Assembly: GCA_030038395.1 (NCBI GenBank)
Contig: JASHOZ010000064.1
Coordinates: forward strand, 1 to 64,000
DNA from: Nitrososphaerales archaeon
Lineage (GTDB): Archaea > Thermoproteota > Nitrososphaeria > Nitrososphaerales > Gagatemarchaeaceae
Length of the DNA: 64,000 bases
Direction of reading: 5' to 3'
Positions within the stretch are counted from its first letter, which is position 1; each line of letters opens with the position of its first letter. Positions 4,208 to 48,215 of the stretch are shown piece by piece. The translations under genes were made by a program, and so were the position numbers. The notes below the pieces were generated by a model. It did not search any database, was not told the DNA's origin, and saw only the letters and a program-made list of their open reading frames with translations.

Positions 4208-4873
4208 CTAGCGTAGAATCTGAGGCTTTGCCTTCTTCGCCTTCTCCCAGTCGTCCAAAAAGCGCTTCAGGCCCGAGTCTGTCAGCGGGTGCTCCATCAT
4301 CTTCATCATCACTTCGGGCGGCATCGTGCTGATGTCGGCCCCGATTCGCGCCGCGTCGAGGACGTGCTGAGGGTGCCGTATGCTTCCGACTAGGACCTCT
4401 GCCTTCAGGCCGTAGTTGTCCCTGATGCGCACGAGGTCCTCCACGACCTCCATCCCCCGGTGTCCGATGTCGTCGAGCCTTCCTATAAACGGGCTGACGA
4501 AAGAAGCTCCCGCCTTCGCCGCGAGCAGCCCCTGATTGGCGGAGAAGATGAGGGTGACGTTCACCCGGATGCCCTTCGAGCTGACGGTTCTCGTGGCACG
4601 GAGGCCTTCGGGGGTGATTGGCATCTTGACGACGACGTTGGGCGCCAGCGACGCTAAGCGCTTCGCCTCCGCGACCATGTCATCGTGGGTCGTGGCGACG
4701 ACTTCGGCGCTGACGTCGCCCGCCACTTCTCTGCATATCTCGGAGACTATGTCTTCGAACTCGCCTGGTTCCTTGGCCACCAATGTCGGATTCGTAGTGA
4801 CTCCGTCGACCACGCCCATTCGGTTCAGCCTCCTGATCCACTCTATGTTGGCCGTGTCGAGGAAGAGCTTCAA
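4208..4873 (-). CDS. tal: Transaldolase / fructose-6-phosphate aldolase-like
   Basis: A 221-residue protein of the small TalC/FSA transaldolase subfamily, which transfers dihydroxyacetone units or cleaves fructose 6-phosphate. The N-terminus MKLFLDTANIEWI, the GVTTNPTLVAKE motif and the Schiff-base Lys in NVVVKMP are all present. The start codon is TTG, 28 nt downstream of a TATA box at 4896-4906, so the message is probably leaderless. It follows the transketolase C gene but has this separate promoter. With transketolase and epimerase it completes a non-oxidative pentose-phosphate set. Whether it acts as transaldolase or as FSA cannot be decided here. Confidence 0.9.
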   Translation of the reverse strand: MKLFLDTANIEWIRRLNRMGVVDGVTTNPTLVAKEPGEFEDIVSEICREVAGDVSAEVVATTHDDMVAEAKRLASLAPNVVVKMPITPEGLRATRTVSSKGIRVNVTLIFSANQGLLAAKAGASFVSPFIGRLDDIGHRGMEVVEDLVRIRDNYGLKAEVLVGSIRHPQHVLDAARIGADISTMPPEVMMKMMEHPLTDSGLKRFLDDWEKAKKAKPQILR

Positions 4874-4895
4874 GTCGGCTCGAAAGAGCGAGATT

Positions 4896-4906
4896 CGTTA
4901 TTAAAG
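4896..4906 (-). promoter_or_regulatory. TATA box of transaldolase gene
   Basis: CTTTAATAACG on the minus strand is centred about 28 nt before the TTG start at 4873, consistent with a leaderless transcript. It overlaps the 5' edge of the spacer after the transketolase C stop at 4908. Confidence 0.55.
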
Positions 4907-4907
4907 G

Positions 4908-5855
4908 CTAACGCCGCGCGCTCGTGAGAGAGACCGCTGCCCCCTCGATGTCGGAGGAGGTCAGGCCGTACTTCTTCATCAACTCCCCTGCTTCCCCGCT
5001 CTCGCCAAACGTGTCCATCACCCCCACCCGCCGCATAGGCGTCGGCCTAGATTCCCCCAGCACTTCTGCGACCGCGGAGCCCATCCCGCCAATCACATTG
5101 TGCTCCTCCGCCGTCACGACTCCGCCGCATTTTTGCGCGAATTTGACTATCGTCTGGGAGTCGACGGGCTTCACCGTGTGGAGGTCGACCACGGCCGCTG
5201 ACATACCCCTCCTCTCGAGCGAGGCTGCGGCCCTGACCGCCTCCGGCACCATGATGCCACAAGCGATCAGGACGACGTCAGACCCATCCCTGATGACCTC
5301 GGCCTTTCCGTGCCTGTACTCGAACCCTGACTCGTACACCAAAGGGGTGGAGGGCCTCGCCAGACGGACGTAGAACGGGCCTGGTATGTCGGCGATTCCC
5401 TTCACCGTCGCCTTGGTGGAGACGGCGTCCGCGGGGACGACCACGTTCATCCTCGGGATCGACCGCATTATCGCGATGTCCTCGACCTGCTGGTGGGACG
5501 CGCCGTCGGGCCCCACTGATATGCCGCCGTGCGAGCACACGATCTTCACGCTGAGGTTCGGATAGGCGATGTTGTTTCGGATTTGATCTACGCACTTCCC
5601 TGGCACGAAGATCGCGTATGTCCCGGCGAAGGGAATCTTCCCAGCCAGCGCGAACCCTGCTGCCGTCCCGATCAGGTTCTGCTCGGCTATCCCGACGTTG
5701 AAGAAGCGCCCCGGGAATTTGTTGGCGAAGACGCCCGACTTCAGTGAGCCGGTGGTGTCGGCGCCGAGTACGACGACCTGGGGGTTGGACGCCCCTAGCT
5801 CTAGGAGGGCGTCCCCGTACGCGTCCCTCATCGCCGCCTGCCTACCCGAGCTCAT
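4908..5855 (-). CDS. Transketolase, C-terminal subunit
   Basis: A 315-residue subunit carrying the pyrimidine-binding and C-terminal domains of transketolase. It pairs with the N-terminal subunit at 6544-7362 to form the thiamine-diphosphate enzyme that moves two-carbon ketol units. RFFNVGIAEQNLIGTAAGFA contains the conserved Glu that activates thiamine, and SHGGISVGPDGASHQQVEDIA is the usual transketolase block. The ATG overlaps the epimerase stop (ATGA). Splitting transketolase into two genes is common in archaea. The epimerase gene is inserted between the two halves. Confidence 0.95.
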   Translation of the reverse strand: MSSGRQAAMRDAYGDALLELGASNPQVVVLGADTTGSLKSGVFANKFPGRFFNVGIAEQNLIGTAAGFALAGKIPFAGTYAIFVPGKCVDQIRNNIAYPNLSVKIVCSHGGISVGPDGASHQQVEDIAIMRSIPRMNVVVPADAVSTKATVKGIADIPGPFYVRLARPSTPLVYESGFEYRHGKAEVIRDGSDVVLIACGIMVPEAVRAAASLERRGMSAAVVDLHTVKPVDSQTIVKFAQKCGGVVTAEEHNVIGGMGSAVAEVLGESRPTPMRRVGVMDTFGESGEAGELMKKYGLTSSDIEGAAVSLTSARR

Positions 5856-6547
5856 GCCTCCCTCGCTGCGGCCTCAGCGCGTGCCCGGAGTGACGCGATG
5901 GCTCCGACGGGATCCTCCTTGGAATAGACGCCCGCACCTGCTACGAGGACGCTCCCCCCTCTCTTAACCACTTCGCGGACGTTCTCCGGCTCGACCCCCC
6001 CGTCAATCTCGAGGTCCACCCCTCCCCCCATGTCGCCGATGAGCGCGTTGACTCTCTCCAGTTTCGGCATGGTAGACATGTCCATCTGTTGACCGCTGAA
6101 GCCGGGGTTCACGGTCATCACGACCAGCGTGCTGAGCTTGTCGAGCCGGTCCCTCGCCCACTCGGGGAGCTCTGTCGACGGTTTCAGAGCGAGCCCTACC
6201 TCCTTCCCCCTTCGGGCGACCGCCCGGTGCAGCGCGTCGAACCGCTCTCCGTTCAGGACCTCCGCATGGAAGGAGAGGACGTCGGACCCGGCGTCAAGGA
6301 ACTTCTCCGCGAAGAGCTCGGGCGTCTCCACCATCAGGTGAGTGTCGAACTTCAGGTCGCACCTCCTCCTCAGCGCCTTCACGGTCCCAGGCCCGAAGGT
6401 GATGTTGGGCGCGAAGTGGCCGTCGATGACGTCGAGGTGCACTTGGTCTGCCCCCCCTCGCACCGAGATGTCGATCGCCTCGCCGAGGTTCCCCAGATCC
6501 CAGGCGAGGACGGAGGGGGCTATCCGTATTCGCCTCACCGGGATCAC
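5852..6547 (-). CDS. rpe: Ribulose-phosphate 3-epimerase
   Basis: A 231-residue TIM-barrel enzyme that interconverts ribulose 5-phosphate and xylulose 5-phosphate. Family motifs include IAPSVLAWDLGNL, VHLDVIDGHFAPNITFGP (catalytic Asp and metal-binding His), FDTHLMVE, VMTVNPGFSGQ and LEIDGGV. The start is GTG 6547, overlapping the preceding stop as GTGA. It lies between the two transketolase subunit genes with 4-nt overlaps on both sides, so the three are almost certainly cotranscribed and translationally coupled. It would supply xylulose 5-phosphate, the ketol donor of transketolase. Confidence 0.95.
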   Translation of the reverse strand: MIPVRRIRIAPSVLAWDLGNLGEAIDISVRGGADQVHLDVIDGHFAPNITFGPGTVKALRRRCDLKFDTHLMVETPELFAEKFLDAGSDVLSFHAEVLNGERFDALHRAVARRGKEVGLALKPSTELPEWARDRLDKLSTLVVMTVNPGFSGQQMDMSTMPKLERVNALIGDMGGGVDLEIDGGVEPENVREVVKRGGSVLVAGAGVYSKEDPVGAIASLRARAEAAAREA

Positions 6548-7362
6548 TTCAGTTCGCTGAGCACGTCAGATAGCTTGTCCTTCGCCGGGGCCGTCCCGTG
6601 ATAGTGGGGGGACCACTCCATGAATGAGATGCCTTTCCCCTTTACCGTGTGAGCTATTATGACGGTGGGGCGGTTGCGGGTGCTCGCCGCCAGGTCGAAG
6701 CCGTCGATTAGCTGCAGGAAGTCGTATCCGTCGACCTCGATGACGTTCCAGTTGAATGCCCTCCACTTCGAGGCGAGTGGCTCGAGAGGCATGATCTGCT
6801 CGGTCAGCCCGTCCTGCTGAATACCGTTCCGGTCGATTATCGCCGTCAGGTTGTCCAGCCTGTACTTCGACGCGGCCATCGCCGCCTCCCAGACCTCACC
6901 CTCCTGCTGCTCGCCATCTCCCATCAGGACGTACGTGCGGCTCGTCCGCCTGTCGAGTCTGGCAGCGAGCGACGCGCCTACCCCGAGCGACAGCCCTATC
7001 CCCTCCGAGCCCGCCGGTGCCTCGACTCCAGGTATGCCGAGCGACGGGTGCCCCTGGAGCCTTGCACCCATCTTCCTCAGGGTCATGAGCTCCTCCACCG
7101 GGAAGAACCCCGCCTGGGCCAGGATGGCGTAGAGGAGAGGGGCGGCATGCCCCTTGCTCAGGAAGAATCTGTCCCTGTCGGGCCATGCCGGGTTCTTTGC
7201 ATCGTACTTCATCGTGTGGAAGAAGAGTGTGACGAGCAGCTCCACCGCCGAAAGGGACCCTCCTGGGTGCCCGGACCCCGCCTCTGCGAGGCTCTCGAGG
7301 ATGAGTTTCCGTGTGTTCCTAGCGGTCCCCTTGAGACGCCCGACCTCTTGCGCCGCCTCCAT
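6544..7362 (-). CDS. Transketolase, N-terminal subunit
   Basis: A 272-residue subunit that binds thiamine diphosphate. The GDGEQQEGEVWEAAMAAS block with following IDRNGIQQDG is the GDG-N cofactor and Mg motif. AGSGHPGGSLSAVELLV and SKGHAAPLLYA contain the conserved substrate and cofactor His residues. It begins at ATG 7362, whose A overlaps the stop of the kinase gene (TGATG). It runs into rpe and the C subunit, forming the operon kinase-tktN-rpe-tktC. Confidence 0.95.
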   Translation of the reverse strand: MEAAQEVGRLKGTARNTRKLILESLAEAGSGHPGGSLSAVELLVTLFFHTMKYDAKNPAWPDRDRFFLSKGHAAPLLYAILAQAGFFPVEELMTLRKMGARLQGHPSLGIPGVEAPAGSEGIGLSLGVGASLAARLDRRTSRTYVLMGDGEQQEGEVWEAAMAASKYRLDNLTAIIDRNGIQQDGLTEQIMPLEPLASKWRAFNWNVIEVDGYDFLQLIDGFDLAASTRNRPTVIIAHTVKGKGISFMEWSPHYHGTAPAKDKLSDVLSELK

Positions 7363-36180: not shown

Positions 36181-36753
36181 TTGGGAGATCCGAGGAAAGC
36201 GAGGAAGCAATACAGCCGCCCGCGCAGCCCCTGGAGGGCGGACCAGCTGGCCCAAGAGCTCTACCTCCTCGGAACGTTCGGTCTCCGGAACAAGCGGGAA
36301 CTATGGAAGACACAGACGCACCTGAGCTCTGTCAGGAAGCAGGCTAGGACTCTCCTGGCCGCGACGGAGCAGGTCAGGCTGAGGGAGGAGAAGAAGCTCC
36401 TCGACAGCCTCAGAAGAGGGGGTCTAGTGCGAGAGGAAGCGACGCTTGACGACATACTAAGCCTCACTGTGGAGGACGTCCTTGGAAGACGACTGCAGAC
36501 CATGGTCTACAAGAAGGGGATGGCCGTCTCGCCTCTCCACGCGAGGCAGCTAATCATCCACGGCCACGTCAGGGTGGGGGGGCGCATAATCACGGTTCCG
36601 GGATACGCGGTGGGTCATGCCGAGGAGGGGGCGGTGGCGCTGGTCGGTGCGCCGGCTCAGGAGCCCCGGCCTGAGGGACAAGCACCGGAGAGCCCCGCGC
36701 AGACCGAGGCAGGCGTACAGGAGGTCGGCGCGCCGCCGGCCCAGGCAGAGTGA
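36181..36753 (+). CDS. rps4: Ribosomal protein uS4
   Basis: A 190-residue small-subunit protein. [35 protein letters not shown] and the S4 RNA-binding domain with [15 protein letters not shown] and TVPGY are archaeal S4. The C-terminal 30 residues are a Pro/Glu/Ala-rich low-complexity tail not usually present, so this copy is extended. The start is TTG 36181; the stop overlaps the S11 GTG (GTGA). Confidence 0.95.
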
Positions 36754-37166
36754 GATGGTTGGCCTCCGAGGAAGAGATCGCGAAGGACAGGTGGGGGGTC
36801 GTCCACATCTACTCGAGCTACAACAACACGATAGTCCACATCACCGACCTGACGGGCGCGGAGACGATATCGTTCTCCTCCGGAGGGAGACACGTGAAGG
36901 CTGACAGGTTCGAGTCGTCCCCGTACGCCGCGATGCGCAGCGCCTCCGCGGCATCCGACGTCGCAAAGGCGAAGGGGATCAACGCGGTGCACATCAAGGT
37001 GAGGGCGGTAGGTGGGACCGGGCCCCGCACGCCGGGCCCCGGAGCGCAGGCCGCCATCAGGGCCATAGCAAGAGCTGGCTTCAGGATAGGAAGAATCGAG
37101 GACGTCACGCCGATTCCGCACGACACGACGAGGAAGAAGGGCGGCCGCAGGGGAAGAAGGGCCTAG
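36750..37166 (+). CDS. rps11: Ribosomal protein uS11
   Basis: A 138-residue small-subunit protein. [57 protein letters not shown] and the basic tail [12 protein letters not shown] are diagnostic. The start is GTG 36750, coupled to S4. RpoD, its usual next gene, is absent downstream; instead a convergent regulator gene ends 3 nt later. Confidence 0.96.
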
Positions 37167-37169
37167 AGA

Positions 37170-38117
37170 TCAGGCGCGACTGAGGACCTCGACCGAGTCG
37201 ACTTTTCCGTCCCCGTCCCTGTCGACGCCGCGGAGCACCGACGCGTAGGCCCCGCCCCGGTAGTCCCCGAAGAGCTGGTCGGCCTGGTTGCAGAGCCCGA
37301 CAATCGCGGCCTTCGTCCCCGCCCCGGCGAGCCCTGCTGCCACTATACAGGTGCTCCCCTTCAGCCATGGATTCTCGACCTTTGCCAGCAAGCAGTCGAA
37401 CTCAGAGTTGTACGACCTGCCATGTCCGTCGACGATTGAACTCCAGAACCCTCCTTCCTTGAACCTGACTGGGAGACGCGGGTTCAGCTCCTCCGCAACG
37501 ACGTTGTTCCTCGGCCCTCCGACGACTATTAGGTTGGCCCCCCTGAGGCTCTCTGCCTTCACGTCGACGTCGAGCTTGACGGGGAACTTCCGAGGTACCC
37601 GGACGAACTGGCCGAGAGCGAACCCGAGCTGAACGGCGTAGTGTCCGTCCCGTGCCTGCGTCCCCGACGTCCCGTGCTGGACCGGCGAGCCCACGACGAT
37701 CCATCCGTCGAAGTCCCCTTCCCTGATGAACTCTCCGAAGAACTTGGCAAGCCCCTTCGGCCCGGGGACCTGTTGAGATGCAGGGAGCCGCTCTCCTTTC
37801 ACGGCGAACTCGACGGCGTAGCCGTCGGTCGAGAGCTCGAAGAGGTTGGCCTCCCCGCCCCTGACTGACTTCCTCCCCACCTGGGCCACCAGGCCCGCCT
37901 TCTCCAACCTCCCCATGTGATAGTAGACGGTCTGATGGTGCACCTTGAGCGCCCTCGCGATTTCGGCCGGGTAGAGCGGCCCCGTCGAGAGGAGAGCCAA
38001 GATCTTCTGCCCGACCTTTCCCGATGCGGCCCTGAAGGGGTCGGGGCTTTCAGCAACCATCACGCGCTTCGCGGTCTGGTCGGCGGAGTCCGCGCCTAGG
38101 AGTAGCCCTTCGCGCAT
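37170..38117 (-). CDS. ArsR-type winged-helix protein with C-terminal S-layer-like domain
   Basis: A 315-residue protein. Residues about 30-95 form a winged helix: LSTGPLYPAEIARALKVHHQ, then TVYYHMGRLEKAGLV. The rest belongs to an archaeal domain seen with S-layer-like proteins: RDGHYAVQLGFALGQF, IVVGGPRNNVVAEELN, GFWSSIVDGHGRSYNSE, AGLAGAGTKAAIVGL, ending in DRDGDGKVDSVEVL, which resembles a Ca-binding DxDxDG loop. No signal peptide. It is divergent from glmS across a region with three CGACCAT sites and a TATA-like element at 38138-38148. It probably regulates itself and perhaps glmS; this is inference. Confidence 0.8.
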   Translation of the reverse strand: MREGLLLGADSADQTAKRVMVAESPDPFRAASGKVGQKILALLSTGPLYPAEIARALKVHHQTVYYHMGRLEKAGLVAQVGRKSVRGGEANLFELSTDGYAVEFAVKGERLPASQQVPGPKGLAKFFGEFIREGDFDGWIVVGSPVQHGTSGTQARDGHYAVQLGFALGQFVRVPRKFPVKLDVDVKAESLRGANLIVVGGPRNNVVAEELNPRLPVRFKEGGFWSSIVDGHGRSYNSEFDCLLAKVENPWLKGSTCIVAAGLAGAGTKAAIVGLCNQADQLFGDYRGGAYASVLRGVDRDGDGKVDSVEVLSRA

Positions 38118-38132
38118 GGGAGCCGCGTCCTC

Positions 38133-38196
38133 CGACCATTAGAAAACGATTTTGCATGGTCGGGGCCGTCTTCGCCTCGCCAGGCTTCGACCATGC
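38133..38196. promoter_or_regulatory. Three CGACCAT sites between regulator gene and glmS
   Basis: CGACCAT at 38133-38139, GCATGGTCG at 38154-38162 and CGACCATGC at 38188-38196. The last two form a perfect 9-bp inverted repeat with a 25-nt spacer. The first site lies at the start or TATA region of the regulator gene. The layout looks like an operator region bound by a dimeric winged-helix protein. Confidence 0.5.
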
Positions 38197-38234
38197 ACGA
38201 CTGTGTCTGGGTGGTACATAAATTCTCTTGGCGG

Positions 38235-38243
38235 ATTTTATTA
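38235..38243 (+). promoter_or_regulatory. TATA box of glmS
   Basis: ATTTTATTA is centred about 28 nt before ATG 38267, implying a leaderless transcript. It supports the Met-Cys start over the longer reading from 38228. Confidence 0.6.
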
Positions 38244-38266
38244 CACCACACGTGCGTGGAGCTGAC

Positions 38267-40033
38267 ATGTGCGGGATAGTGGGCTGCGTCTCCGACGAGC
38301 CCGTGGCGGGCACGCTAGTCGACGGTCTGAGGCGGGTCGAATACCGCGGCTATGACTCCGCGGGCGTAGCGACCGTCAGCGGGGGGCGCATTCACGTCCG
38401 GAAGGGCGTGGGCCGGATAAGCGACATCGAGGCCAAGAAGAAGCTGACCGAGCTCAAGGGGACGACGGGCATCGCGCACACGAGGTGGGCTACGCACGGG
38501 GGGGTCTCGGAGCGCAACGCTCACCCGCAGACGTCGTGCGGCGACTCCGTGGCGGTCGTCCACAACGGGATAATCGAGAACTACGTCTCCCTCAAGAGGG
38601 GGCTCGTCGCGCGGGGGCACGAGTTCAGGAGCGAGACGGACACCGAAGTGATCGCGCACCTCATCGAGGAGGAGTACCTGAGGTCGAAGGAACCTCTGAG
38701 GGCGACCCTAGCAGCGACCAAGAAGCTTTCGGGGCAGTTCGCAATCGGTGTGGTCTTCAGCGACCGACCGGACGTAATCGTCGGGGCACGCAGAGACGCT
38801 CCGCTGATCGTCGGCGTGGGCGACGGAAAGACGTTCTTGGCTAGCGACGTGCTCGCGTTCATCGAGCACACGGACAGGTCGGTGTTCCTGGACAACCAGG
38901 AGGCGGTCGAGATCACGAAGGACTCCGTGAAGATGGTGACGGCGAACGGGAGGGAAGTCGTCAGGCGCCCCACACAGGTGGCATGGGAGCTCGCCGATAT
39001 CTCGAAGTCGGACTACGCGCACTACACGCTGAAGGAGATCAACGAGCAGGCGCGGACGGTGGCAGGGGCCGCGGTCCAAGAGCCTGGAAGGGTGGCGGCA
39101 TTCGCGAAGGCGCTCGTCGGCGCGAGCTCAATCTTCATCACGGGGTCGGGGACAAGCTACCACGCCGGCCTCTTGATGAAGTCGAGGCTGAACCAGGAGG
39201 CGGGGATCCGCTGCGACGCTATCGTCTCCGGGGAGCTCAGGGAGCATGACGGCCTCCTAGGGGACAAGTCCGTGGTGGTGGCGCTCTCGCAGAGCGGGGA
39301 GACCGCCGACGTCCTGGAGGCCGTCAGAGGCGCGAAACGTCGCGGCGCCAAGGTCCTCTCCGTGGTCAATGCAGCCGGTTCGACACTGGCGCGTGAAAGC
39401 GAGCTCGCCCTCCTCCTGAACTGTGGTCCCGAGGTGGGGGTGGCGGCGACCAAGAGTTTCACCGCCCAGGTGGTCGTAGCCAACATGGTCGTGGACGCCG
39501 TGCTCGGGAAGAGGCGCGCCGACGGCGTCGCGCAGCTCTCGAAGGCCGTTGCCGAGGTGCTCAAAACCGACCCGCTCGTGAAGAAGCTGGTGCAGAAGTA
39601 CAGGGACAGGTCGGACTTCTACTTCGTCGCCCGAGGCTATCAGAGCCCGGTCGCCCTTGAGGGGGCGCTGAAGCTCAAGGAGCTCTCGTACCTGCACGCC
39701 GAGGGGATGCCCGCGAGCGAGCTCAAACACGGCACACTCGCACTGATTGAGAAAGGGACGCCGGTCGTGATGATCAACCCAACGGGGCCCAACCACGCCG
39801 ACTCCTTGTCGAGTGCAGAAGAGCTGAGGGCGAGGGGAGCCGACCTCATCGGAGTCTCCGACGAGGAGGACGGCGTGTACAGGCACCTAATCCGAGTTCC
39901 GAAGGTCGAAGACAGGTTCATGCCGGTCGTGGAAGTGATCCCCTTGCAGCTCCTCGCGTACCACTTCGCAGTCGCGAGGAACAGGGACCCGGACTATCCG
40001 AGGAACCTGGCGAAGTCCGTGACAGTCAAGTAG
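38267..40033 (+). CDS. glmS: Glutamine-fructose-6-phosphate aminotransferase
   Basis: A 588-residue enzyme that makes glucosamine 6-phosphate from fructose 6-phosphate and glutamine, the entry to amino-sugar and surface-glycan synthesis. The N-terminal glutaminase starts MCGIVGC, with the nucleophile Cys directly after Met; RWATHG and HNGIIENY follow. Two SIS isomerase domains follow, with TGSGTSYHAGLL, ALSQSGETADVLEAV and ATKSFTAQ. The C-terminus NLAKSVTVK matches the family. The start fixed here gives Cys2 after Met removal, which is required for activity. It is divergent from a winged-helix regulator. Confidence 0.97.
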   Translation: MCGIVGCVSDEPVAGTLVDGLRRVEYRGYDSAGVATVSGGRIHVRKGVGRISDIEAKKKLTELKGTTGIAHTRWATHGGVSERNAHPQTSCGDSVAVVHNGIIENYVSLKRGLVARGHEFRSETDTEVIAHLIEEEYLRSKEPLRATLAATKKLSGQFAIGVVFSDRPDVIVGARRDAPLIVGVGDGKTFLASDVLAFIEHTDRSVFLDNQEAVEITKDSVKMVTANGREVVRRPTQVAWELADISKSDYAHYTLKEINEQARTVAGAAVQEPGRVAAFAKALVGASSIFITGSGTSYHAGLLMKSRLNQEAGIRCDAIVSGELREHDGLLGDKSVVVALSQSGETADVLEAVRGAKRRGAKVLSVVNAAGSTLARESELALLLNCGPEVGVAATKSFTAQVVVANMVVDAVLGKRRADGVAQLSKAVAEVLKTDPLVKKLVQKYRDRSDFYFVARGYQSPVALEGALKLKELSYLHAEGMPASELKHGTLALIEKGTPVVMINPTGPNHADSLSSAEELRARGADLIGVSDEEDGVYRHLIRVPKVEDRFMPVVEVIPLQLLAYHFAVARNRDPDYPRNLAKSVTVK

Positions 40034-40116
40034 CGGCGAATCCCTGGGGCCAGTCGCGTAAGGGAGACAGCCGCCCGTCGCGCAAAGCAATTAAGCAGTT
40101 GGTGCGACGCGACGCC

Positions 40117-41136
40117 GTGGTATCAAAGAAGGAAGTACTTTCGAAGCCTGTCGAGACCATCGAAGTCGGAAAGAAGAGCGTTTCGCGCCTTCTGGACGAG
40201 ATGGCCCAGACCGGCTTTCAGGGGAAGAAGCTAGGACAGGTGGCCGAGATATGGGCCGACATGGCGGTTCAGAGGGACTTGACCGTCTTCCTCGGTCTGA
40301 CAGGCTCCCTGAGCACGACAGGACAGTGGAAGATTGTCAAGTGGCTGGTCGAGAACAGGTACGTAGACGTCCTCGTCAGCACCGGAGCCAACATCTCCGA
40401 AGACATACTGGAGGCGCTGGGATACCACTACTACCAGGGGACGTGGCTAGCCGACGACGAGGAGCTTCTGCGGCTGAAGGTCGACAGGTTCTATGACGTC
40501 TACGCCGACGAAATGCAGTACAGGAAGCTCGAGAACACGATCTACAGGTACGCGAGCACACTCGACGACACGAAGGCCTACTCGACGAGGGAGTTCCTCC
40601 ATGGCTTCGGAGCGTTCCTCTCGAAGAAGGGGATTGACAGCATCGTAGCCGCCGCTTACAGGGCGGGGGTCCCAGTCTACTCCCCCGGATTGATAGACAG
40701 CGGGTATGGGGTCGCGCTGAGCCTCCTCAAGCGACAGAAGGGAAGGCTCGTCAGGCTGGACCAGACCAAGGACATGGAGGAGCTGGCGCAGATCGCGGAG
40801 AGGACAAAGAGGACGGGGGTCGTCTACCTAGGCGGCGGGGTCCCGAAGGACACCATCCAGCTCTCAACCATAATCAAGTCCCTGGCGAAGGGAGGGGAGG
40901 AGGAGACCCCTCACGAATACGCCATCCAGATAACGGCCGACAGCCCTCAGTGGGGGGGCCTTTCGGGGTGCACCCTGGAGGAGGCGGTGAGCTGGGGGAA
41001 GATCGCTCCCTCCGCCAAGAAAGCCACGCTGTACGCCGACATCACGCTGGCGCTCCCTATCGTGGCCCACGCCCTCAACGAGAAGGTCACGAAGCGCAGT
41101 CATCCCGCGGATCTCGGGTGGGTGTTCAGGCTCTAG
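40117..41136 (+). CDS. dys: Deoxyhypusine synthase
   Basis: A 339-residue NAD-dependent enzyme that transfers the aminobutyl group of spermidine to a Lys of aIF5A. DLTVFLGLTGSLSTTGQWKI, LVSTGANISEDILEALG and VVYLGGGVPKDTIQ are conserved, and SWGKIAPSAKKATLYADITL carries the active-site Lys. TATA-like CAATTAAG at 40088-40095 lies about 26 nt before GTG 40117, favouring that start over the TTG at 40099. The 3' end overlaps convergent purB by 11 nt. aIF5A itself is not in the window. Confidence 0.93.
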   Translation: MVSKKEVLSKPVETIEVGKKSVSRLLDEMAQTGFQGKKLGQVAEIWADMAVQRDLTVFLGLTGSLSTTGQWKIVKWLVENRYVDVLVSTGANISEDILEALGYHYYQGTWLADDEELLRLKVDRFYDVYADEMQYRKLENTIYRYASTLDDTKAYSTREFLHGFGAFLSKKGIDSIVAAAYRAGVPVYSPGLIDSGYGVALSLLKRQKGRLVRLDQTKDMEELAQIAERTKRTGVVYLGGGVPKDTIQLSTIIKSLAKGGEEETPHEYAIQITADSPQWGGLSGCTLEEAVSWGKIAPSAKKATLYADITLALPIVAHALNEKVTKRSHPADLGWVFRL

Positions 41137-47225: not shown

Positions 47226-48215
47226 TCAGCCCGCGCGGTCCGACGAGTGGCTCTTCCAGAGCTTGGGGTACGTCCCCTGCTTCATTATCACCCGCTCAGT
47301 CGAGGAGGCAAGGCCCTTCTTCGCGGAGGTCATTTCTTCGGTCGACATCATCGCCTTCCCCGTGGCGACCAGCTCGCCCTTCGCGGACGTGATCACCAAC
47401 AGATCACCCTTCGCGATCGAAGCGGAGGCCGAGAGTAGCCCGGGCACCCCCAGCCGGGCCCCGTGGCAGATCGCATCGACGGCGGAGTCCCTGATGACGA
47501 CCCGCTTCGTCGAGCCGATGGAAGACTCGATGGGCTTGACGAGTGCGCGCACGGCGGCTTCGTCGCCCCCCCGGAGCCTGTAGACCGCGTCGCTCAGTTG
47601 GTGCATGGTGACCAGCCCGTCACCCTCTCGCAGCGGGCCCACCATCGTTCGGCGCAGCTCGACCATAGTGGCTCCGACCCCGAGGACTTCGCCCATGTCG
47701 TAGACCAGCTTCCTGACATACGTCCCGGACTCGCAGACGCACCGGAACAGCAGCAGGTTCCCTTTCGCCTCTTCCATGGCCAACTCGTAGACGGTCCTAC
47801 TCCTCACCTGTCGGGCGACGGAGGACCTCTGCGGCGGGCGCTGGAAGATCTCACCTGTGAACTCCTTCACTACGGCTTCCAGCACTCTAGGAGGGACGGC
47901 GGAATGGAGCCTCATCACGCCCCTGTACTCCTTGGGGAAGAGCAGCAGAAGGCCGAGCGCCTTCGTCCCCTGCCCCGTCCCTATGGGGAGGAGGCCCGAG
48001 ACTGGAGGGTCCAGGGTGCCGCTGTGCCCCGCCCGCTCGACGCCGAGCATCTTCCGCGTCCAAGCCACGACCTCGTGGCTCGTGGGACCACGGGGCTTGT
48101 CTAGCGCTATGAGCCCGTAGTCCAGCAGCACCTCCAAGGGGCGCGCGCTGGGGGTCCACCCGTGTTCAGGGTCGGAAGGCTCCTCGTCGACTACGACGAG
48201 TCTCTGCGGCTCCAA
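47226..48215 (-). CDS. cbf5: tRNA/rRNA pseudouridine synthase Cbf5 (TruB family)
   Basis: A 329-residue catalytic subunit of archaeal H/ACA RNPs, which converts guided uridines to pseudouridine. GLIALDKPRGPTSHEVVAWT, ERAGHSGTLDPPVSGLLPIG (catalytic Asp), RSRTVYELAMEEAKG and CESGTYVRKLVYDMG are the TruB motifs. A PUA domain follows at about 240-310. It starts after the CMP kinase gene with 1 nt between, the conserved archaeal cmk-cbf5 pair, but without L14e. Confidence 0.95.
   Translation of the reverse strand: MEPQRLVVVDEEPSDPEHGWTPSARPLEVLLDYGLIALDKPRGPTSHEVVAWTRKMLGVERAGHSGTLDPPVSGLLPIGTGQGTKALGLLLLFPKEYRGVMRLHSAVPPRVLEAVVKEFTGEIFQRPPQRSSVARQVRSRTVYELAMEEAKGNLLLFRCVCESGTYVRKLVYDMGEVLGVGATMVELRRTMVGPLREGDGLVTMHQLSDAVYRLRGGDEAAVRALVKPIESSIGSTKRVVIRDSAVDAICHGARLGVPGLLSASASIAKGDLLVITSAKGELVATGKAMMSTEEMTSAKKGLASSTERVIMKQGTYPKLWKSHSSDRAG

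Follow-up and report, generated by a model that had tools for sequence, protein, structure and literature searches.

A candidate dedicated regulator of glmS with an S-layer-anchor-like domain in Thermoproteota and DPANN archaea

Archaeal glycans and surface polymers draw on amino sugars. In the 64,000-nt stretch of Nitrososphaerales DNA analyzed here (the window), a ribosomal S11-type gene is followed by a minus-strand gene for a winged-helix protein and then by plus-strand glmS, the last two genes being divergent. The question raised by this locus is whether the winged-helix protein, referred to below as the regulator, controls glmS through sites in the intergene and, if so, in which direction and in response to what. 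The original prediction started from repeated CGACCAT heptamers and envisaged a circuit linking cell-surface state or calcium to amino-sugar supply. The locus comprises the following features.

36750–37166: ribosomal S11-type gene, named by eye
37170–38117, minus strand: regulator, 315 aa, ArsR-like winged helix and S-layer-anchor-like C-terminal domain (family and structure matches)
37188–37223, minus strand: 12-residue EF-hand-type loop DRDGDGKVDSVE, regulator residues 299–310 (alignment, model)
37278–37745, minus strand: regulator C-terminal domain, residues ~125–280, homologue of the M. voltae S-layer anchor (9FSA, PF05124)
37818–38024, minus strand: regulator winged-helix DNA-binding domain, residues ~32–100 (HTH_20, PH1932)
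38135–38160, minus strand: putative operator site A, ACCATGCAAAATCGTTTTCTAATGGT, over the regulator TATA-like element (motif match)
38139–38146, minus strand: regulator TATA-like element, within site A, 29 nt from the ATG (read from sequence)
38154–38162, minus strand: left arm of a 9-bp inverted repeat, one half-site of A
38188–38196, plus strand: right arm CGACCATGC of the same repeat, one half-site of B
38190–38215, plus strand: putative operator site B, ACCATGCACGACTGTGTCTGGGTGGT (motif match)
38237–38243, plus strand: glmS TATA box TTTATTA, 30 nt before the ATG and 47 bp after the start of site B
38267–40033, plus strand: glmS, glutamine--fructose-6-phosphate transaminase, 588 aa (TIGR01135, E 1.8e-201)

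The glmS start was placed at the Met preceding the Cys of MCGIVG. On the other side of the intergene, the regulator TATA-like element is of the TTTATT type in most genus-set relatives, and because site A with this element ends 17 bp from the regulator start codon in the window, the regulator transcript is probably leaderless. Directly before the glmS TATA box, a block resembling CTTTTGCGGGG is kept in the genus set (38225–38236 in the window, where it reads CTCTTGGCGGA) and is perhaps an extended BRE. An Rfam scan of 36800–40300 revealed no glmS ribozyme or riboswitch up to E 1, the sole match in that interval (40221–40261) lying far below its gathering score, and the 64-kb window contains no tRNA genes.

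A 26-bp palindrome in two copies

Three copies of CGACCAT within 64 nt were confirmed, at 38133–38139 and 38188–38194 on the plus strand and 38156–38162 on the minus strand. The heptamer is found 18 times in the window versus 8.2 expected, and three copies within 64 nt occur once in the window and in none of 400 dinucleotide shuffles. As other 7-mers cluster likewise (8 places in the window hold some 7-mer three times in 64 nt; mean 3.8 and maximum 9 in 30 shuffles), the heptamer cluster alone is weak evidence, and it is the comparison with relatives that decides. That comparison did not bear out CGACCAT as the operator unit, which was rejected: conservation in relatives defines a 26-bp ACC...GGT site, the imperfect palindrome ACCATGCA-N15-GGT, of which the window holds two copies, both exact, whereas the leading CG of the heptamer is not conserved among relatives. 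The predicted perfect 9-bp inverted repeat stands to the extent that its arms, GCATGGTCG at 38154–38162 and CGACCATGC at 38188–38196, are exact reverse complements; with the 26-bp site in two copies as the unit, however, the repeat joins half of A to half of B, and the arms belong to two different operators.

Conservation was followed in a genus set of 23 distinct intergenes (from 29), 22 of the genus and one of a sister genus (L011). In the alignment of these 23, a block that is ACCATGCAAAACCGTTTATTAGTGGT or near it, read in the regulator's direction, corresponds to site A. Site B is a weaker copy, the second-best match, and, in 22 of 23 intergenes, begins 77–79 nt ahead of the glmS start; in the exception, L027, it is present with a score too low to call, and scores for site B are also poor in L007, L028, and L030. 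The scanning matrix was trained on site A, so that the A score within the genus set is circular and those of B and of the distant sites are not. In the order and wide sets described below, the symmetric consensus ACCaTTAtAAAanntTTTaTAAtGGT is an AT-rich form of the same palindrome.

In the genome of the window, ACCATGCA-N15-GGT has three exact matches, the two in the intergene and one in a coding frame (47584–47609); allowing up to one mismatch gives 18 matches, the three exact ones included, versus 15 for the reversed control, which is no excess beyond glmS. The 16 matches outside the intergene all lie within stop-to-stop frames of 123–538 aa (weak proof of coding in a GC-rich genome), two of them near a frame start (L059, L068). 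Across 31 genomes of the genus, the stricter ACCATGCAAA-N13-GGT has 20 exact matches, all 20 in the regulator–glmS intergene, and with one mismatch it has 20 matches elsewhere versus 17 for the control. The looser ACCATGCA-N15-GGT has 44 exact matches in these genomes, 24 in the regulator–glmS intergene and 20 elsewhere, with 13 for the control. Ten of the latter were inspected: nine are in open frames and one (G027, contig 13) may be intergenic, and the look-alikes in G016, G009, and G018 apparently lie in the same coding frame with the same neighbour. With motif counts away from glmS close to those of the control, a wider regulon was rejected; of the two outcomes named as refuting the original prediction, a genome-wide motif frequency at chance level is thus seen insofar as no wider regulon emerges, and the regulator looks dedicated to its own gene and glmS.

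Gene pairing and promoter geometry

Among 61 near genomes, glmS is found in 59 and a relative of the regulator (E ≤ 0.001; a few matches are to the winged helix only) in 49, so that glmS exists without the regulator. By profile search, the regulator is present in 85 of the 151 order-level genomes (E ≤ 1e-30) and in 55 of the 300 from the phylum (E ≤ 1e-20); the 20 phylum genomes listed as match-less are all of family f10, in the same order, and 225 further genomes are match-less. By the titles of assembled-genome records, the matches listed include Nitrososphaerales, Nitrososphaeraceae (with Nitrosocosmicus), Bathyarchaeota, and Caldarchaeum and, on the DPANN side, Aenigmatarchaeota, Nanohaloarchaea, Diapherotrites, Woesearchaeota, and Nanoarchaeia. 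In a tree of 32 regulators, seven of eight DPANN rows fall on one supported side under midpoint rooting; branches are long, and some other placements are unsure.

The pairing with glmS extends over this range. All 30 genus and near-family loci (L001, L003–L031) have glmS divergent and adjacent to the regulator, and 13 of 14 further family and order loci (L032–L045) have glmS in the stretch, L037 with a 2.9-kb gap and L035 with one of 796 bp. Among the matches listed, 27 of 32 named loci have glmS in the stretch, 23 divergent and adjacent and four at 1–2.5 kb, and five have none in the stretch fetched; five of the 32 repeat genus-set genomes. In G046 (L142), a short antisense frame, GSDLDDDGKMDSVEILSLR followed by a stop, lies between rpsK and glmS and resembles the C-terminal end of the regulator. 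No regulator was found in G046, where the glmS promoter lacks the sites, and judged by its sequence the short frame looks like a relic of the regulator at its ancestral place.

GlmM and GlmU convert the GlmS product into UDP-GlcNAc. When 20 neighbouring proteins from 12 of the 32 named loci were compared with family libraries, L124 was found to carry a GlmM-like phosphomutase (TIGR03990, E 1.1e-78, under the cut-off) and a GlmU-type protein (TIGR03992, above the cut-off), and L133 a GlmU-type gene between regulator and glmS; these two loci, in which the regulator lies near glmU, are from DPANN. The regulator of L119, a locus lacking glmS in its vicinity, is divergent from a glycosyltransferase gene. 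The remaining neighbours are apparently unrelated or have no family match.

For the promoters, the genus set was compared with an order set of 14, which includes four of the same family (L032–L034 and L046, the last being the L031 locus), with a wide set, and with a control set of 17 glmS promoters lacking an adjacent regulator (14 from regulator-less genomes and three from second glmS copies). Left out were L035 (796-bp gap), L038, L115 (a near copy of L114), L151, and L152; L102–L105 and L120, from genomes already in the genus set, were not counted again; L106, L107, L112, L119, L121, and L122 contributed separate stretches, regulator-side or glmS-side, to the motif test; and L127, L132, and L133 stayed outside that test. 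Promoters are related by descent, and the counts below are not independent.

In the spacing test, the TATA box was picked by a simple rule and the best site was then taken over at most 66 upstream positions. The distance from the start of site B to the glmS TATA box is 47 bp in 23 of 23 genus-set promoters (1.12 expected with shuffled upstream sequence). Among promoters from the order's other genera, 10 of 13 have a distance of 47–49 bp (shuffles 0.71), as do 11 of 20 wide promoters, from Bathyarchaeota, Caldarchaeum, Nitrososphaeraceae, and DPANN (shuffles 0.91), leaving 3 of 13 and 9 of 20 outside this range; the matrix used for distant promoters was partly fitted on the same sequences, which affects the motif and not the spacing. 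One of the 17 control promoters has the 47–49-bp spacing (0.62 expected), and none of the 17 has a site at p ≤ 0.02. When each stretch is scored singly, p ≤ 0.02 is attained by no more than 6 of the 14 at order level and 11 of the 26 in the wide set. ACC and GGT exactly 26 bp apart occur in 20 of 23 genus, 6 of 14 order, 3 of 26 wide, and 0 of 17 control sequences (0.91, 0.26, 0.41, and 0.26 expected, respectively), a signal that is weak in the wide set. The second refuting outcome named with the original prediction, a lack of conservation in glmS promoters of relatives, is clearly not what is seen, and the earlier suggestion of operator-like sites common to the winged-helix regulator and glmS is supported.

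The distance between the two sites behaves differently. It is 54–57 bp in 22 of 23 genus-set promoters and 57–97 bp in the 12 distant promoters where two sites score well (L042, L109, L110, L111, L113, L114, L116, L118, L123, L125, L126, and L131). With the B-to-TATA distance kept and the A-to-B distance varying between lineages, site B is phased to the glmS promoter; it ends 21 bp before the glmS TATA box and leaves the expected BRE free. The short intergenes L039, L040, L044, and L045 have one good site only, 47–49 bp from the glmS TATA box, which seems to serve both roles.

Loci with a looser arrangement were also scored. In L037, regulator and glmS are separated by a long gene (4241–6679) that by eye resembles a PQQ-type dehydrogenase; a palindrome is retained in the promoter of the regulator (p 0.020), and that of glmS shows just a weak palindrome, at 49 bp (p 0.26). 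L151 and L152, glmS promoters from genomes with the regulator elsewhere, were scored afterwards and gave p 0.035 and 0.005, off the usual place. Second, more distant glmS copies occur in G015, G031, and G057, and their promoters (L150, L149, and L148, respectively) are without a significant operator.

The regulator: a winged helix and an S-layer-anchor-like domain

The N-terminal part of the regulator belongs to the ArsR-type winged helices, with matches above the cut-offs to HTH_20 (E 1.8e-11; 44.3 bits, cut-off 27) and HTH_5 (30.4 bits, cut-off 22), and the structural matches of the model include ArsR/SmtB proteins. The ArsR/SmtB metalloregulator model NF033788 scores 23.4 bits versus a cut-off of 55, which does not place the protein in that group. 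The top solved match to the winged helix is PH1932 of P. horikoshii (1ULY; Z 13.5 over model residues 16–102), a 192-residue protein whose remainder does not align to the model. The TrmB winged helix PF01978 reaches 25.9 bits (cut-off 25.6) and ranks behind HTH_20, HTH_5, and MarR_2; the TrmB-type effector-binding domain PF11495 is absent among the Pfam matches at E ≤ 1, which is no exclusion, and the C-terminal domain matches PF05124/9FSA instead.

The C-terminal domain is a homologue of the M. voltae S-layer anchor domain, as the original prediction had recognized in general terms. In the model it superimposes on 9FSA with Z 13.2 and rmsd 2.5 over 125 aligned residues (chain 135) at 29% identity, the profile match to 9FSA has E 8.5e-05, and PF05124 (S_layer_C) is found at E ≤ 0.01 in 28 of 32 family members (best 1.3e-9), the window protein itself scoring 18.4 bits, under the curated cut-off of 23.9. 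The M. voltae domain is part of a surface protein; fusion to a winged helix argues against such a role for the regulator. The fold is also matched by BcsB and alpha-glucuronidase domains (Z ~10–12), which hint at a sugar-related fold and show no function. Two conserved, polar motifs of the regulator, PHG and RDGHY, have no counterpart in the profile alignment with 9FSA, which is weak in that stretch, and we infer that they are the best candidate for a ligand site. The relative placement of the two domains was not used because the pTM of the whole model is only 0.63.

The loop DRDGDGKVDSVE fits the canonical 12-position calcium pattern, and this pattern is kept in 18 of 18 complete loops in an alignment of 20 members (A1) that were not selected by the loop motif; the named loci were found partly through that motif, and conservation is therefore given from A1 only. 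In the model the loop joins two strands, residues 291–298 and 308–314, rather than helices, and the EF-hand model PF00036 gives E 0.21, so that the arrangement is strand-loop-strand and not the helix-loop-helix of an EF hand. The predicted DxDxDG loop is thus retained as a conserved pattern, from which calcium binding is possible, and its proposed tie to signalling is not.

Proposed control of glmS and alternatives

Putting together what was computed, namely the conserved sites with their fixed spacing, the homology of the C-terminal domain, and the pairing of the two genes, we infer that the 37170–38117 product is probably, though by a modest measure, a dedicated, autorepressed regulator that activates glmS, acting as a dimer on A and B under amino-sugar feedback. 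A dimer would bind the 26-bp palindrome at two places. At A it would cover the regulator's own TATA element and repress its own gene; at B, held a constant distance ahead of the glmS BRE/TATA, it would most likely activate glmS by aiding TBP/TFB binding, and the position of A on the regulator's TATA element together with that of B, phased upstream of the glmS TATA box, fits these two actions. The C-terminal domain would probably sense an amino-sugar or nucleotide-sugar product, which would close a feedback loop on UDP-GlcNAc supply. The crystallised 9FSA domain is described in PMC11410804 as the part responsible for dimerisation of the S-layer anchor, a property that would suit a dimer on a palindrome. 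A more specific version can be offered tentatively, at somewhat less than even chances: that across Thermoproteota and DPANN an S-layer-anchor domain was turned into the sensor of a dedicated regulator of UDP-GlcNAc supply, switching glmS on from the site phased 47 bp to its TATA box and itself off from the second copy (in short intergenes, the same one), with calcium as a possible cofactor in a structural or signalling role.

The strongest competing reading, that the regulator represses both genes, with dimers on A and B cooperating by looping or spreading and glmS shut when amino sugars are plentiful, is unlikely without being far-fetched. Sites 54–57 bp apart throughout most of the genus set could allow cooperative binding, and according to PMC4158304 the majority of DNA-binding transcription factors in archaea act as repressors. 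Yet B leaves the expected BRE and TATA box free, its distance across lineages is constant relative to the glmS TATA box and not to A, and the four short intergenes have a single good site, 47–49 bp from that box. The circuit originally proposed, in which the regulator reads calcium or S-layer state and adjusts amino-sugar supply for surface glycans, draws on the S-layer-type domain and the conserved EF-hand-type loop. Against it, PF05124 at E ≤ 0.001 has only four matches in 21 genomes (that of the window and 20 relatives), all to this regulator and none in the genome of the window, so that this search found no S-layer gene linked to the regulator; in addition, the motif shows no excess elsewhere in that genome, and inspection of neighbours, made without family-library comparison, recognised no S-layer or glycan promoter among the 16 other matches. 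We regard this circuit as improbable.

It is less probable still that the sites serve another, unlinked DNA-binding protein while the adjoining winged-helix protein controls something else. Binding of the regulator to the sites is itself putative, which gives such a protein its opening, but none of the 17 control promoters, which have no regulator next to them, carries the sites, site A lies on the regulator's own promoter, and the regulator relic in G046 goes with a site-less glmS promoter. Chance repeats in a GC-rich intergenic region, for which the clustering of other 7-mers in the window might speak, can be set aside as having a negligible probability, being refuted by the conservation of the sites and their constant spacing, both within the order and outside it.

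Activation of glmS with autorepression, the reading we prefer, has parallels in characterized systems. NagC of E. coli differs in being a ROK-family protein that senses GlcNAc-6-P; the ROK family is absent among the regulator's Pfam matches at E ≤ 1, which is no proof of absence. NagC activates the amino-sugar synthesis operon glmUS and represses a divergent one (PMC3551598), a likeness of outcome and not of descent. CopR of P. furiosus is likewise an archaeal helix-turn-helix protein encoded divergently from its target: in vitro it activates copA and represses copR, and its semi-palindromic motif lies directly upstream of the BRE, as site B does relative to the glmS BRE/TATA (PMC7830388). The CopR-like layout, with sites over the own TATA element and upstream of the target BRE/TATA, is found here at the level of sequence. 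CopR differs in sensing copper through a TRASH domain and acting globally, whereas the present regulator has an S-layer-anchor-like effector domain, glmS as target, and no motif excess in its own genome. TrmBL1/Tgr of Thermococcales are also regulators of sugar metabolism, and the position of their sites relative to BRE/TATA goes with the outcome, activation for upstream and repression for downstream sites; autoregulation is listed for TrmBL1, as autorepression is proposed here (PMC4158304). They differ in their site, TATCAC-N5-GTGATA, their many targets, and their TrmB-type effector domain.

A literature search over titles and abstracts, with subscription journals mostly outside it, returned no transcriptional regulator of an archaeal glmS and no winged-helix protein with an S-layer domain. 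If the more specific version above is correct, no dedicated transcriptional regulator of hexosamine synthesis would, within the literature searched, have been described in archaea before this one. As pairing, operator, and spacing recur in distant archaea, binding would account for a control circuit shared by many uncultured lineages and would give the S-layer-anchor fold a role in gene control. The fixed 47-bp spacing also lends itself directly to testing the way in which activators of archaea reach TBP/TFB.

Two minor observations concern the genes themselves. In two loci from Bathyarchaeota (L110, 4949–5383; L121, 4988–5428), a DUF371 gene comes after that of the regulator. In L105 (585–3839, minus strand), the one locus compared with an intein model, glmS matches the intein C-terminal splicing model TIGR01443 (E 1.4e-8), and glmS of L120 has the same gap; in 9 of the 59 glmS-bearing genomes (G005, G007, G013, G016, G017, G022, G023, G024, and G028), the match begins at query residue 18–70 in frames of 876–1125 aa. 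An intein near residue 70 of glmS seems to be present in L105, L120, and these nine genomes.
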